64,000 bases of DNA from positions 62,001 through 126,000 of the forward strand of contig JAADGJ010000012.1 of the NCBI GenBank assembly GCA_013152435.1, given 5' to 3'. Each line of letters starts with the position of its first letter. Position 1 is the stretch's first letter. The position numbers and the translations under genes are program-made. Origin of the DNA: Chloroflexota bacterium. Its GTDB lineage: Bacteria > Chloroflexota > Anaerolineae > DUEN01. This document shows, piece by piece, positions 2,060-7,165 of the stretch. Under the pieces are notes generated by a model. That model ran no database searches. It was not told the DNA's origin and saw only the letters and a list, made by a program, of their open reading frames with translations.

Positions 2060-2689
2060 GTGAACGGCACCGTGACGGGCAAGCGATCTCCAACGGCATA
2101 TCTCCCATCGTTGATCTCCTGGGCGCTGTCGCCGCCGATCGTCGCGGCCATCTTCATTGGCAACGGGATCGGCGCGGTCGCGGGCGTGATCTACTGGTAC
2201 GGGAGGCAGTTGCTAGCCAGCCCCTGGTACCTCTGGCCCTTCATCCCCGACTCTCCCGGCAGCACCTTCATGGTGCTGCCCGCGCTGGCGCTGATCCTGC
2301 GCAGGCGGCCGGGCTGGCCGCTCCTCAACGCGTATGCCGCCTTCGGCATCATCAAGTATGGGCTGTGGACGGTGGCGTTCTGGTCCCTCTACTGGACGAA
2401 TGGAGGCCCCTTCACCCTGGAAAGCATGGCCATGACCTTCACCCACTCCATCATGATCGCCGAAGGGCTGCTTCTGCTGTACCACACGCGGCTGACCCGT
2501 CCCGTCGCCCTGGGCCTGGGCGCCTGGTTCCTCCTCAACGATTGGGTGGATTACGGTCCCTTACACACGCGGCCGGGCCTGCCCCCGGGCGTATCCGTTC
2601 AGACGATGATGTGGATAGCCGGGGGGATCACGTTGCTTATCACGGCCGCGTACCTGATGCTGGCTCACCGAGGGAAACGCACACGATGA
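2060..2689 (+). CDS. DUF1405 integral membrane protein (YpjA-like)
   Basis: This 209-residue protein has about five to six hydrophobic segments and conserved blocks typical of DUF1405, such as 'FIPDSPGSTFM', 'YGLWTVAFW' and 'LNDWVDYGPLHTR'. The family has no established biochemical role. Its stop codon overlaps the start of the next gene in an ATGA, so the two are almost certainly co-translated. I chose the ATG at 2060; the preceding sequence (cgaggaccg) gives only a modest ribosome site. Confidence 0.75.
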   Translation: MNGTVTGKRSPTAYLPSLISWALSPPIVAAIFIGNGIGAVAGVIYWYGRQLLASPWYLWPFIPDSPGSTFMVLPALALILRRRPGWPLLNAYAAFGIIKYGLWTVAFWSLYWTNGGPFTLESMAMTFTHSIMIAEGLLLLYHTRLTRPVALGLGAWFLLNDWVDYGPLHTRPGLPPGVSVQTMMWIAGGITLLITAAYLMLAHRGKRTR

Positions 2690-3552
2690 ACGATTCGATG
2701 TCCTCTGGCCTGCCCCCGACACCGCCCGCGGTGGGGGCGGCCTCCGCATCGGCCAGCGCCACCATCGCACGCCGCATCGACGCGATCATCGATCGAGTAG
2801 CGCGGCACTGGCTGGCGATCATCCTGATCGGGATGGGGATCTTCGTCACGCTGCCCTTCCTGGCGCCGGTGGCCATGGCGGCCGGCTGGACCTGGCTGGG
2901 CAAGCTGATCTACACGATGTACATCCCGTTCTGCCATCAGTTGCCGCAGCGCAGCTGGTTCCTCTTCGGAGAGAAGCTGACGTACACCCTGGACGAGATC
3001 AACCGGGTCTACCCATCCACCAACCCCTGGCACCTGCGGTTCTTCTACGGCTCGCCGGAGATGGGGTGGAAGGTAGCCTGGAGCGATCGCATGATCAGCT
3101 TCTACGGGATGATCCCGGTGTACGGCGCGCTGTACGCCTGGCTGCGGAGGCGGCGAGGCCGACCGTTGCCCCCCATCCCGCTGTGGGCGTTCATCGCCCT
3201 GCTGGCCCCGATGGCCCTGGATGGGGGCACGCACTGGCTCAACGACCTGTTGTACGGCATATCCGGAGGCGGGTTCCGTGACACGAACGCCTGGCTGGCG
3301 GCGTTGACGGGCCACGCGTGGCCGGGCTTCTACGCCGGCGATCACTTCGGCACCTTCAACTGGTGGATGCGGCTCATCACCGGTGTGCTGGGCGCGTGGG
3401 GGATCGCCTTCTTCGGGTTGCCCTGGGCGGATCGCCTGATGACCGCCGAGGAGGATGCCCCAGACGTGCAAGCCGTCGGGGGACCGCAGACGGCCGCGCG
3501 GGAAAGCGCACATGACCGGCGTCATAGCCGGGAGGCCTCCAGGCCGTTATGA
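2686..3552 (+). CDS. DUF2085 integral membrane protein
   Basis: The start is set by the ATGA overlap with the DUF1405 gene, giving 288 residues; an in-frame extension upstream lies wholly inside DUF1405 and is rejected. An Ala/Ser-rich N-terminus precedes four or so membrane segments. The family signature CHQLPQRS is at residues 83-90, in a segment reading 'IPFCHQLPQRSWFLFG'; His, Cys and Arg of this motif are the DUF2085 hallmark. Function is unknown. The gene sits just upstream of a copper/selenium-type redox cluster, so a role in membrane redox or metal handling is possible but unproven. The hydrophilic tail after about residue 255 looks unstructured. Confidence 0.75.
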   Translation: MNDSMSSGLPPTPPAVGAASASASATIARRIDAIIDRVARHWLAIILIGMGIFVTLPFLAPVAMAAGWTWLGKLIYTMYIPFCHQLPQRSWFLFGEKLTYTLDEINRVYPSTNPWHLRFFYGSPEMGWKVAWSDRMISFYGMIPVYGALYAWLRRRRGRPLPPIPLWAFIALLAPMALDGGTHWLNDLLYGISGGGFRDTNAWLAALTGHAWPGFYAGDHFGTFNWWMRLITGVLGAWGIAFFGLPWADRLMTAEEDAPDVQAVGGPQTAARESAHDRRHSREASRPL

Positions 3553-3606: not shown

Positions 3607-4062
3607 ATGCGACATACCGTGAAGAAGCTGCTCTCACCGCTCTTGCTCACCTTCCTGCTGCTGACCGGAGGGCTCAGCGCGTGCGGTGGATCCAAGGTCG
3701 AGCTCAAGATGGCTCCAGCGTCGGAGCTGCCGCCCACGCTTCAGCAGGCGCCGATCAACGTGCGAGAGGCGTATCAATTCGCCCTGGCCAACAAGGACAT
3801 CCTGGAGAAGATCCCCTGCTACTGCGGCTGTGGCGGCATGGGCCACCAGAGCAATTACATGTGCTACGTGCAGGACGATAGCTCCGCCGACGGGCAGATC
3901 GTCTTCGATTCCCACGCCTATGGCTGAGGCATCTGCGTGGACATCACGCGTGACGTGATGAAAGGGTTGAAAGACGGCAAAGACCTGAAGACGATCCGGG
4001 CGGCCATCGACCGGAAGTACAGCCAGTTCGGCCCGCCGACCGACACACAGCCTGTGGAGTAG
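3607..4062 (+). CDS. PCYCGC-motif lipoprotein with in-frame UGA, probable selenoprotein
   Basis: The frame opens at an ATG at 3607 with a lipoprotein signal (lipobox LSAC, Cys26), followed by the PCYCGC motif at residues 70-75 and Cys86 in a GHQSNYMCY block. It meets a TGA at 3925-3927 and continues in the same frame for 44 codons to TAG at 4060-4062. Read through, residue 107 sits in 'AYG-U-GIC', where I recall family members carrying Cys (C-x2-C). The result is a Sec-x2-Cys pair. The extension (VDITRDVMKGLKDGKDLK...) resembles the family C-terminus, about 38 of its 44 codons end in G or C, and its stop is 7 bases before the next start. A conventional stop would give 106 residues missing the conserved end. 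PCYCGC proteins are extracytoplasmic and poorly characterised; the cysteines suggest metal binding or thiol redox. A sequencing error (TGC or TGT to TGA) is the main alternative. Confidence 0.8.
3928..3966 (+). promoter_or_regulatory. Candidate bacterial SECIS element
   Basis: Just after the UGA codon, CATCACG (3942-3948) pairs perfectly with CGTGATG (3954-3960), enclosing the 5-nt loop CGTGA. The loop starts 21 nt after the UGA and its second base is G. Bacterial SECIS elements recognised by SelB are known to sit immediately 3' of the UGA, with a small apical loop roughly 16-37 nt away and a G among its first two bases, so this hairpin fits. The stem lies inside the coding sequence, as bacterial elements do. 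Confidence 0.65.
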
Positions 4063-4069
4063 CCGATCC

Positions 4070-4531
4070 GTGAAGGCCAGCACCCTCGTGCTCATCCTCG
4101 CCACGACCTTGGCCATTGGGGCCGCGGTCCTCCCATGGCCGGGTGAGAGGGCCACCCCGACCCAGCGGGTGATCCACGTCAACGCGCGGCAGTTCGCCTT
4201 CGACCCGCCCCGACTGCATGTGAACCGGGGCGACCAGGTAACGCTGGTGCTGCACGCGACCGACGTGGTACACGGGCTGTACCTGGACGGCTATGATGTG
4301 AATCTCAAAGCTGTGCCGGGGATCTCCGCCCAGGCGACCTTCGTCGCAGATCGGGCGGGGAAGTTCCGCTATCGCTGCTCCGTAAGCTGCGGCAGCCTGC
4401 ACCCCTTCATGATCGGCGAGCTGGTCGTGGGGCCGAACACGCTTCTATGGCGCGCCATCGCCCTGACGACCATCGCCGCAACCGGCGCGCTGGCCTTCCT
4501 GTACACGCGCTCCCGGGAGGTGGCCCGATGA
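4070..4531 (+). CDS. Membrane-anchored CuA cupredoxin (cytochrome c oxidase subunit II-like)
   Basis: The GTG start at 4070 lies 7 bases after the stop of the PCYCGC gene, and the product is 153 residues. An N-terminal hydrophobic anchor (about residues 4-22) precedes a cupredoxin domain with all CuA ligands: His68 in 'VVHGLYL', then C103-x3-C107-x3-H111-x2-M114. A second hydrophobic segment lies near the C-terminus (about 124-145). CuA centres accept electrons from cytochrome c or copper proteins in heme-copper oxidases and nitrous oxide reductase. No subunit I or NosZ gene is present in the window, so the acceptor is unknown. The stop overlaps the next start (ATGA). Confidence 0.85.
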   Translation: MKASTLVLILATTLAIGAAVLPWPGERATPTQRVIHVNARQFAFDPPRLHVNRGDQVTLVLHATDVVHGLYLDGYDVNLKAVPGISAQATFVADRAGKFRYRCSVSCGSLHPFMIGELVVGPNTLLWRAIALTTIAATGALAFLYTRSREVAR

Positions 4532-5958
4532 CCCAGGCCAGGGCGCCCGCCTCGCGCCGACGCAGGGCCCCGACGCCCCACCCCGTCAGCGTCCCCAGAT
4601 TCGAGCTGACGTCCATCCGCTGGCTGGACGCCATCCTCCGATGGCGCCCCCTGCAATTCACGCTCATCGCCGCGACGTTGGGCTTCTTCGTCCTGGCGAT
4701 CCTGACCAGCCTGGTGGGGACGCCAGTCGGGAACCGAAACTTCGGCATCATCTTCGTCTGGATCGTCTGGTGGGCGCTGGTGATTAGCCTGCTGGTGCCG
4801 CTAGCCGGCCGGTTATGGTGCGCCGTGTGCCCTATCCCCGCCCCCGGCGAGTGGCTCCAGCGACGGGCGTTCATCGCCCCGCGCCCGCTTCGCACCCTGG
4901 GCAAGCGCTGGCCCAACCGACTCAAGAACATCTGGATCCAGAATTTCGCCTTCCTCGGCGTGGCCGTCTTCAGCGCGATCATCCTGACACGGCCGGCCGT
5001 CACGGGGCTGGTGCTCCTGGCCTTCGTCCTCCTGGCCATCGGGCTCAGCCTGGTATACGAGCGCCGCATCTTCTGCCGCTACTTCTGCCCGGTGGGCGGC
5101 TTCATCGGCCTGTACAGCATGATCGCCCCCCTGGAGCTGCGGGTGAAGGACCCCGAGGTGTGCCGACGCCACAAGACGAAGGAATGCTACCTGGGCAGCG
5201 AGAACGGGTTCGGCTGCCCTTGGCTGGTCTTCCCCGGCAGCCTGAAGCGGAACGCCTACTGCGGCCTGTGCACCGAGTGCCTGAAGACCTGCTCCATGAA
5301 CAACGTGGCGCTCAACCTGCGGCCGCCCGGGCTGGACCTGCTCGTCTCCAAAGAGCGGGGGCTGGACGAGGCGTATAAAGCGTTCATTATGTCGACTTGC
5401 GCCCTCCTCTACTCGGCCATTCTGTTGGGGCCATGGGGTGCGCTCAAGGATGCCGCCAACATGGAGGACTGGAGGACCTGGGTGGTTTACGCGATCGGGT
5501 TCATCGCCATGAACCTCGCCGTCGTGCCTGGGCTCTTCTATGCGGCCACCTGGCTGAGCCGGCGGTGGGCACGGCTGAGCCACGCGCCGACCCGCCAGCT
5601 CTTCATCGACTTCGCCTACGCGCTGGTGCCGCTGGGGCTGATGGCCTGGATTGCCTTCAGCCTGTCCTTCGTGCTGGTGAACATCTCCTACGCGCTGCCG
5701 GTGCTGTCCGACCCGTTCGGCTGGGGATGGAACCTGCTGGGCACCCGGGACTTCCCCTGGACGCCCTACTTCCCCGCCCGGATCCCTTACCTGCAGGTGC
5801 CGATCCTGATCGTCGGGCTGATCTTCGGGCTCTACATCACCTGGCGCATCGCCAATGAGCACGCGTCCGCGCCCGAGCAGGCGCTGCGGAGCGTGGTGCC
5901 CATCGCCGCCCTTTTGCTCGTGGTGACGTTCGGCTTTCTCGGGCTGTATTTGGGGTAG
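4528..5958 (+). CDS. Polytopic membrane 4Fe-4S protein (NapH/NosR C-terminal/polyferredoxin-like)
   Basis: The start at 4528 is in an ATGA overlap with the CuA gene and has a GGGAGG ribosome site; the product is 476 residues. Membrane segments alternate with cysteine motifs: 'LWCAVCPIPAP', 'IFCRYFCPVGG' (the paired CxxxCP motifs of NapH/NosR/CcoG-like proteins) and one ferredoxin-type cluster C-x2-C-x2-C-x3-C in 'YCGLCTECLKTCSM'. Further membrane segments form the C-terminal half. Such proteins pass electrons from the quinol pool to periplasmic acceptors or take part in copper-site maturation. Position between two CuA proteins suggests a dedicated electron route. The exact role is not known. 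Confidence 0.82.
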   Translation: MTQARAPASRRRRAPTPHPVSVPRFELTSIRWLDAILRWRPLQFTLIAATLGFFVLAILTSLVGTPVGNRNFGIIFVWIVWWALVISLLVPLAGRLWCAVCPIPAPGEWLQRRAFIAPRPLRTLGKRWPNRLKNIWIQNFAFLGVAVFSAIILTRPAVTGLVLLAFVLLAIGLSLVYERRIFCRYFCPVGGFIGLYSMIAPLELRVKDPEVCRRHKTKECYLGSENGFGCPWLVFPGSLKRNAYCGLCTECLKTCSMNNVALNLRPPGLDLLVSKERGLDEAYKAFIMSTCALLYSAILLGPWGALKDAANMEDWRTWVVYAIGFIAMNLAVVPGLFYAATWLSRRWARLSHAPTRQLFIDFAYALVPLGLMAWIAFSLSFVLVNISYALPVLSDPFGWGWNLLGTRDFPWTPYFPARIPYLQVPILIVGLIFGLYITWRIANEHASAPEQALRSVVPIAALLLVVTFGFLGLYLG

Positions 5959-6008
5959 GAGAAAGGACAGGTCAGGCTGGAGTGGAGGGAGCCCTTCAGA
6001 TGTCCTCG

Positions 6009-6033
6009 CGGTGTGTTTTCAGACACACTCTCA
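6009..6033 (+). repeat. Fragment of the dispersed repeat family (right terminus)
   Basis: The stretch ends in GTTTTCAGACACACTCTCA, which matches the right terminal sequence of the complete copies (for example at 48163-48180). Nothing of the repeat body is left. It lies directly before the CuA-cytochrome c gene and makes that gene's start hard to place. Confidence 0.6.
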
Positions 6034-6034
6034 A

Positions 6035-7165
6035 ATGGGAGATCGGGAGTTGGGGATTCAGGGACTAGGGATCAAAAAAGTGGAGATCGGGAGGTGGAGG
6101 CGGCAGGAGGCCATCGCGCTGGCGATCGTCCTGCTCATCGTCGTGGGATTGCCCGCCGCCACCCTGGGTTATCAGTTCGGCCTGCGTCCGCTGCTGAGCG
6201 CGAACGTTCAGGAGGTGGAGATCGTCGGTCGCCTCCCCGAGCGCGGGGGATGGTCGGTGGAGACGGTGCGGGTGCAGGTGGGCAAGCCCGTGCGCCTGAT
6301 CCTCACCAGCGACGATGTGGTCCATGGGTTCGCCATCGGCAAGATGGGGGTGGACGCCGGTTGGGTCTATCCGGGACAGCCCAAGGTTGTGGAATTCACC
6401 CCGCAGCGGGCCGGACGATATACCTTCTATTGCACCACCTGGTGTGCCGAGGGGCATTGGCGCATGCGCGGCACCCTGGAGGTGTACGATCCCCAAGACC
6501 CTTCCGCCGTGAATGAGCCCGTCGATCCCCCTCAAACCGACTGGCAGGCCGAGGGAATCGATCTCGACGCGCCTCACCTGGCGGAGATCTTCCCCGCAAA
6601 GCGCCCCTCCGCAGCACGTGGGGCCGCCATCTGGCAGAGGACGCCCGAACTGCCCACCCCCGACCAGGTGCTGGCCCGGCTGGACCTGCGCCGACAAAGC
6701 CCCGCTCAGGTGTTCGAGATGCTCCAGGAGGATCGCGTCCCGGACCTTGCGCTGGCGCCCTTGGGCCGGATGCCCGAGGGGGATCTGTGGGACGTGGTCG
6801 CCTTCCTCTGGCGTGAGGGCACCGCCGCGGAGAGCGTGGAGCTGGGTCGCGAACTGTACCAGACCAACTGCGCCGCCTGTCATGGCGAGAACGGGGACGG
6901 ACAGGGGCCCGCGGCAGCGTCGTTGCTCTCGTCCTCCATGGAGCGCGACCTGCAAGGGAAGCATGGGCCGCAATCGCCGGCCGACTTCACGGACGCCCGC
7001 TCTATGGCCGGCGGCACCGGCATGATCTACTACGGCAAGCTGGTGCGGGGCGGTATGGGCACGGGCATGCCCTACTGGGGGACGATCTTCACCGAACAGG
7101 AGCTGTGGGCGCTGGTAGACTACCTGTGGACGTTCCCGTTTGACCTATCCACCCAGGAGCGTTAA
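6035..7165 (+). CDS. CuA cupredoxin-cytochrome c fusion (subunit II-like)
   Basis: With the ATG at 6035 the product is 376 residues. A GTG at 6080 (AGGGA upstream) is an equally plausible start, because the bases before 6035 are a repeat remnant. After a membrane segment (about 26-46) comes a CuA domain with H97, C133-x3-C137-x3-H141-x2-M144. A linker of about 110 residues with no recognised domain follows, then a class I cytochrome c with CAACHGENGDGQGP (heme at about residue 279) and a probable distal Met in 'GGMGTGMPYWG'. Fused CuA-cytochrome c subunits are known from caa3-type oxidases. Here no catalytic subunit I, III or assembly gene accompanies it in the window, so the terminal acceptor is open. 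Confidence 0.85.
   Translation: MGDRELGIQGLGIKKVEIGRWRRQEAIALAIVLLIVVGLPAATLGYQFGLRPLLSANVQEVEIVGRLPERGGWSVETVRVQVGKPVRLILTSDDVVHGFAIGKMGVDAGWVYPGQPKVVEFTPQRAGRYTFYCTTWCAEGHWRMRGTLEVYDPQDPSAVNEPVDPPQTDWQAEGIDLDAPHLAEIFPAKRPSAARGAAIWQRTPELPTPDQVLARLDLRRQSPAQVFEMLQEDRVPDLALAPLGRMPEGDLWDVVAFLWREGTAAESVELGRELYQTNCAACHGENGDGQGPAAASLLSSSMERDLQGKHGPQSPADFTDARSMAGGTGMIYYGKLVRGGMGTGMPYWGTIFTEQELWALVDYLWTFPFDLSTQER

Follow-up and report, generated by a model that had tools for sequence, protein, structure and literature searches.

The PCYCGC family (PF13798) includes a barely described group of selenoproteins. A 2026 review (PMC13188914) lists, among predicted selenoproteins, a 'CYCXC family protein (hypothetical protein OS_HP4), PF13798, UxxC', and a 2022 review (PMC9312934) credits OS_HP4 to Zhang and Gladyshev (2007). 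In NCBIfam, the model NF041379 is named 'CYCXC family (seleno)protein'. The family also comprises PCYCGC lipoproteins of Bacillaceae, such as AOT13_14730 of Parageobacillus (PMC13068155). For the bacterial SECIS (bSECIS) hairpin, the published limits (PMC13188914) are a loop of 3-9 nt, a stem of 4-16 bp, a G in the first two loop positions, a spacing of 16-37 nt and an MFE of at most -7.5 kcal/mol.

The gene described here lies at positions 3607-4062 of the analysed stretch of 64,000 nucleotides (hereafter, the window; all features are on the + strand). Its product belongs to the same Pfam family as OS_HP4/CYCXC and has a putative U-x-x-C motif, as is listed for OS_HP4, but it scored 66 bits against NF041379, under the cut-off of 90, and is a longer Chloroflexota lipoprotein encoded beside CuA genes. 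Other selenocysteine (Sec) forms scored 56-74 bits, and this cut-off was likewise not reached by the further members tested from Chloroflexota, Bacillaceae and archaea. The Bacillaceae lipoproteins have the same invariant Cys/His set but a Cys at the Sec column, and the neighbourhood of AOT13_14730 differs (Fe3+ binding protein). The original prediction knew of no described selenoprotein in this family; since PF13798 is already listed as OS_HP4/CYCXC with UxxC, the proposal that this selenoprotein family is new does not hold. No description of a Chloroflexota branch of PCYCGC selenoproteins was found in the literature searched, and the present analysis extends the family to this phylum (27 loci, 24 of 396 genomes), reaching a cultured type strain in which the gene is annotated as truncated.

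The reading frame of the gene contains an in-frame TGA (3925-3927), continues for 44 more codons and ends with a TAG (4060-4062), which is separated by 7 bases (4063-4069) from the GTG of the next ORF. GC by codon position matched on either side of the TGA (0.57/0.41/0.86 downstream versus 0.59/0.42/0.84 upstream), in agreement with the coding-like tail that had been noticed. The read-through product of 151 aa matched PF13798 with 107.5 bits (E = 7.8e-31), exceeding the Pfam gathering cut-off of 25 bits, versus 64.6 bits (E = 1.2e-17) for the truncated product; the last 47 residues by themselves matched positions 109-151 of the model (E = 2e-7). From the N-terminus onwards, the protein is characterized by a lipobox-like L-S-A-C26 behind a hydrophobic N-terminus (3673-3684; assigned by eye on the translation), the P-C-Y-C-G-C motif (residues 70-75; 3814-3831) and a putative Sec107-Gly-Ile-Cys110, so that both the PCYCGC motif and the conserved downstream C-x-x-C of the family are present. 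Membership in the family and a lipoprotein-like N-terminus had both been predicted and were supported. When aligned with Bacillaceae and archaeal homologs, the PCYCGC motif was invariant, and the invariant columns included C71, C73, C75, H80, C86, H103, C/U107 and C110. No relatives of the protein were found in phage and viral collections.

Downstream of the TGA, positions 3942-3960 can form a candidate bSECIS hairpin, CAUCACG-CGUGA-CGUGAUG (CATCACG-CGTGA-CGTGATG in the DNA), with a 7-bp stem, a loop of 5 nt and a G at loop position 2. This geometry was as originally described, except for the distance of 21 nt after the UGA, which applies to the start of the apical loop; the stem itself starts 14 nt past the UGA. 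All published bSECIS limits are respected (loop 5, stem 7, G at 2, spacing 21, -7.7 kcal/mol). Compared with the bacterial SECIS model (PMC13188914, Fig. 2A), the hairpin shares the 5-nt loop, the 7-bp stem, the 21-nt spacing, the energy of -7.7 kcal/mol and the G at loop position 2, then U or G, and differs in usual variation only. Taken as a single sequence, it is weak evidence, because its fold energy is ordinary (z -0.69 versus shuffles) and some hairpin within the published limits follows 9.6% of the TGA triplets of the window; the energy was therefore rejected as stand-alone evidence. Moreover, when the peptide VDITRDVM is encoded with random synonymous codons, a 7-bp stem arises about 20% of the time. 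TGA 3925-3927 is the only TGA in the window with coding-like flanks on both sides plus a bSECIS-grade hairpin. An Rfam scan of the locus returned chance matches only.

To compare the residue-107 column and the hairpin across the class, 102 homologous loci were retrieved from a sample of 396 genomes, 89 of which contain the PCYCGC family. The column was occupied by TGC or TGT (Cys) in 75 loci and by TGA in the other 27, with no other codon, and the homologs from Bacillaceae and archaea likewise have Cys there, as the proposed alignment of residue 107 with Cys required. The TGA loci came from 24 genomes. A 7-bp stem with a G in loop position 1 or 2 was found at exactly the same place in 24 of the 27 TGA loci versus none of the 75 Cys loci; in the remaining three, the hairpin is of 5 bp and its loop reads UGGAC, UGGAU or CGUGA. 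Two-sided changes were observed at 4 of the 7 pairs of the hairpin (for example CAUCGCG/CGCGAUG and CAUCGUG/CACGGUG), with 94.9% of cells paired. In the Sec forms, synonymous codon identity was 0.888 under the hairpin versus 0.458 elsewhere, and in the Cys forms 0.505 at the hairpin place versus 0.441 elsewhere; none of these hairpin and identity figures is to be read as a probability, because related sequences are not independent. The tail protein did not diverge faster than the part preceding the TGA. A second PCYCGC paralog of the same genome (L027, contig C86, about 4845-5342) also has a TGA followed by an identical hairpin. Some additional internal stops (one TGA in L152, and a TAA in L169 and in L181) proved to be just the normal ends of Cys forms. 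We regard this comparative evidence, drawn from sequences, as decisive for a functional hairpin and for the Sec reading, and gene 3607-4062 is almost certainly a real selenoprotein gene whose TGA is read as Sec, giving U107-G-I-C110 as had been proposed.

A homolog was also found in Thermomicrobium roseum DSM 5159, on a complete plasmid record (NC_011961, 573004-573456; L244 4947-5399). It has a TGA at the same column, then an identical hairpin, and the frame continues as a full PCYCGC protein. The corresponding RefSeq CDS (WP_012642643.1) stops at the in-frame TGA, at 105 aa, which is the truncation by ordinary gene callers that had been anticipated. As this record is complete, an assembly error is unlikely as a general explanation of the TGA. 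The text of the T. roseum genome paper makes no mention of selenium, and the plasmid was not one of the six entries listed in a search for SelB.

Regarding the Sec machinery, the source genome, a 4.97-Mb draft of 149 contigs (95.8% complete), encodes SelA, SelB and SelD, and selD carries its own in-frame TGA at the CAGU site (Sec-type SelD; L026 about 5707-6750, contig C61). The selA gene is split across two contig ends (start in L024 and end in L025; contigs C147 and C96), which overlap over 383 bases with 97% identity, suggesting a strain mixture in the assembly. The remaining component, tRNA-Sec, was not found in this draft by Rfam, a strict scan or an anticodon-stem pattern; the proposed search of the genome for Sec genes gave selA, selB and selD. 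The Rfam candidates for tRNA-Sec in this genome proved to be tRNA-Leu, tRNA-Ser and others. In a relative of the same genus (G001), whose protein is the same as that of the Caldilineae bacterium J4 record (Chloroflexota), a tRNA-Sec(TCA) directly follows a flavodoxin-like gene; at the orthologous position of the genome studied here, tRNA-Sec is missing. A tRNA-Sec is also present in a genome of the same family (G003). By the strict scan, tRNA-Sec was detected in 294 of the 396 genomes of the class and not in the other 102; in the TGA-bearing genomes, a hand count of the same scan gave 16 with and 8 without (out of 24), that is, no enrichment relative to the class. Because 294 of the 396 class genomes have tRNA-Sec and the other pathway components are encoded here, the missing tRNA-Sec is read as an assembly gap or a relocation; it is the weakest link of the Sec case.

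Two ways of doing without Sec have to be weighed. If the TGA were a true stop, a sequencing error or the mark of a decaying gene, the tail would be a remnant; indeed, gene callers end the gene there, in RefSeq for T. roseum as well, tRNA-Sec was not located in the assembly, and the fold energy of the hairpin is ordinary. However, TGA and tail persist in a complete record as well as at 27 loci from 24 genomes, the tail protein diverges at no higher rate than the preceding part, and conservation of the hairpin is at the RNA level; we consider this explanation extremely improbable. The failure to find tRNA-Sec in the assembly would equally suit decoding of the UGA as Cys or Trp, or plain readthrough, but SelA, SelB and a Sec-type SelD are present, bSECIS geometry is restricted to the TGA forms, and tRNA-Sec occurs in the same genus, all of which argue against such decoding, which we judge very improbable. 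Decoding of UGA 3925-3927 as Sec is, on the sequences compared, very highly probable, and a Sec-decoded, membrane-anchored PCYCGC selenoprotein is the best explanation overall, which we hold with high confidence. According to this explanation, SelB bound to hairpin 3942-3960 would bring Sec-tRNA-Sec to the UGA, giving U107-x-x-C110 in a putative membrane-anchored, extracytoplasmic protein of the PCYCGC family.

Among the neighbouring genes, two membrane proteins are encoded upstream, a DUF1405 protein (2060-2689; PF07187, E = 4.3e-33) and, directly upstream, a DUF2085-like protein (2683-3552; PF09858, E = 2.8e-5, with 24.9 bits, just under the cut-off of 25). Downstream, we found a CuA-like COX2/cupredoxin protein (4070-4531; PF00116, E = 4.4e-10), a membrane 4Fe-4S protein of the Fer4_5 type (4528-5958; PF12801, E = 2e-8), which is weakly NapH-like with a NapH score below cut-off, and a COX2-type CuA domain fused to cytochrome c (6038-7165; PF00116 and PF00034). 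The two nearby CuA/COX2 proteins of the original prediction are thus those at 4070-4531 and 6038-7165. COX2/cupredoxin and Fer4_5 proteins are conserved neighbours and recurred downstream of Sec forms as well as of Cys forms (among 43 neighbours scanned, 12 and 11; among 80, 29 and 28). Two heavy-metal P-type ATPase genes and methyltransferase genes flank the cluster of the paralog L027. More generally, the clade of this paralog (L027, L150, L144 and L167) adjoins heavy-metal P-type ATPases, and Met replaces His103 in its members.

The CuA neighbourhood offers a testable function for this domain of unknown function. The selenol/thiol pair U107/C110 could act with the cysteines of CYCGC, Cys86, His80 and His103, and might either reduce the cysteines of the neighbouring CuA proteins ahead of copper loading or pass copper on. 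A copper- or CuA-linked redox or chaperone role, suggested by these neighbours, is a tentative assignment; the more specific proposal of a Sec-dependent copper metallochaperone or CuA-site reductase, whose RNA hairpin would also dictate protein residues, is more tentative still.

Other functions can be considered for the Sec-containing protein. The predicted structure is helical (mean pLDDT 83.7), and its best structural neighbours are the periplasmic CcmH domains 2hl7 (Z 4.8, rmsd 3.3, 74 aligned) and 2kw0 (Z 4.0, rmsd 3.7, 74 aligned), which share with it a helical domain, a C-x-x-C pair and a C-terminal helix of the form 'G-K-x-x-x-E-I ... Y'; no solved structure of a relative was found. 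Together with the nearby cytochrome c gene, this likeness could point away from a copper protein and towards a thiol oxidoreductase of the CcmH kind that serves cytochrome c maturation. However, Z values below 5 are in the background range, the Foldseek E value was 1.6, the hhalign profile comparison with E. coli CcmH (26%) covered the C-terminal helix only, with no sequence-level relation shown, and the spacing after the CxxC is different. The relation to CcmH suggested by the model is therefore a weak lead, and a role in cytochrome c maturation appears clearly unlikely. The Cys/Sec cluster could also be a structural or storage site for metal that takes no part in redox exchange, as the eight invariant Cys/His positions and the metal ATPase and CuA neighbours would allow; this possibility seems rather unlikely, given that U-x-x-C is a typical redox pair and that selenoproteins are mostly redox proteins, according to the abstract of the 2022 review (PMC9312934).

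Finally, Sec/Cys switching was described on a tree of the 102 proteins, built with residue 107 masked. About 8 Sec/Cys changes were counted within this one class, at least 4 of which are forced by well-supported branches. One Cys form (L232; G146, contig C427) that falls within a Sec clade has kept the 7-bp stem, with an altered loop, CUGGA, which is likely a fossil SECIS. At the loop codon, 25 of the 27 Sec forms have CGT or CGG, both encoding Arg, versus none of the 75 Cys forms with Arg, where Gln prevails, and we infer that this Arg is fixed by the RNA requirement and not by the protein. Because of this distribution, and given a stem already favoured by the peptide, a switch from Cys to Sec may take no more than the change of TGC/TGT to TGA plus that of CAG to CGG, two point changes in all. 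These forms illustrate how a SECIS located in a coding region shapes the protein sequence, and, with several switches in one class, they provide a natural comparison of the benefit of Sec at one site. Two divergent Sec forms, L148 and L155, were observed with a SECIS loop UGGAC or UGGAU and a Leu at the loop codon.
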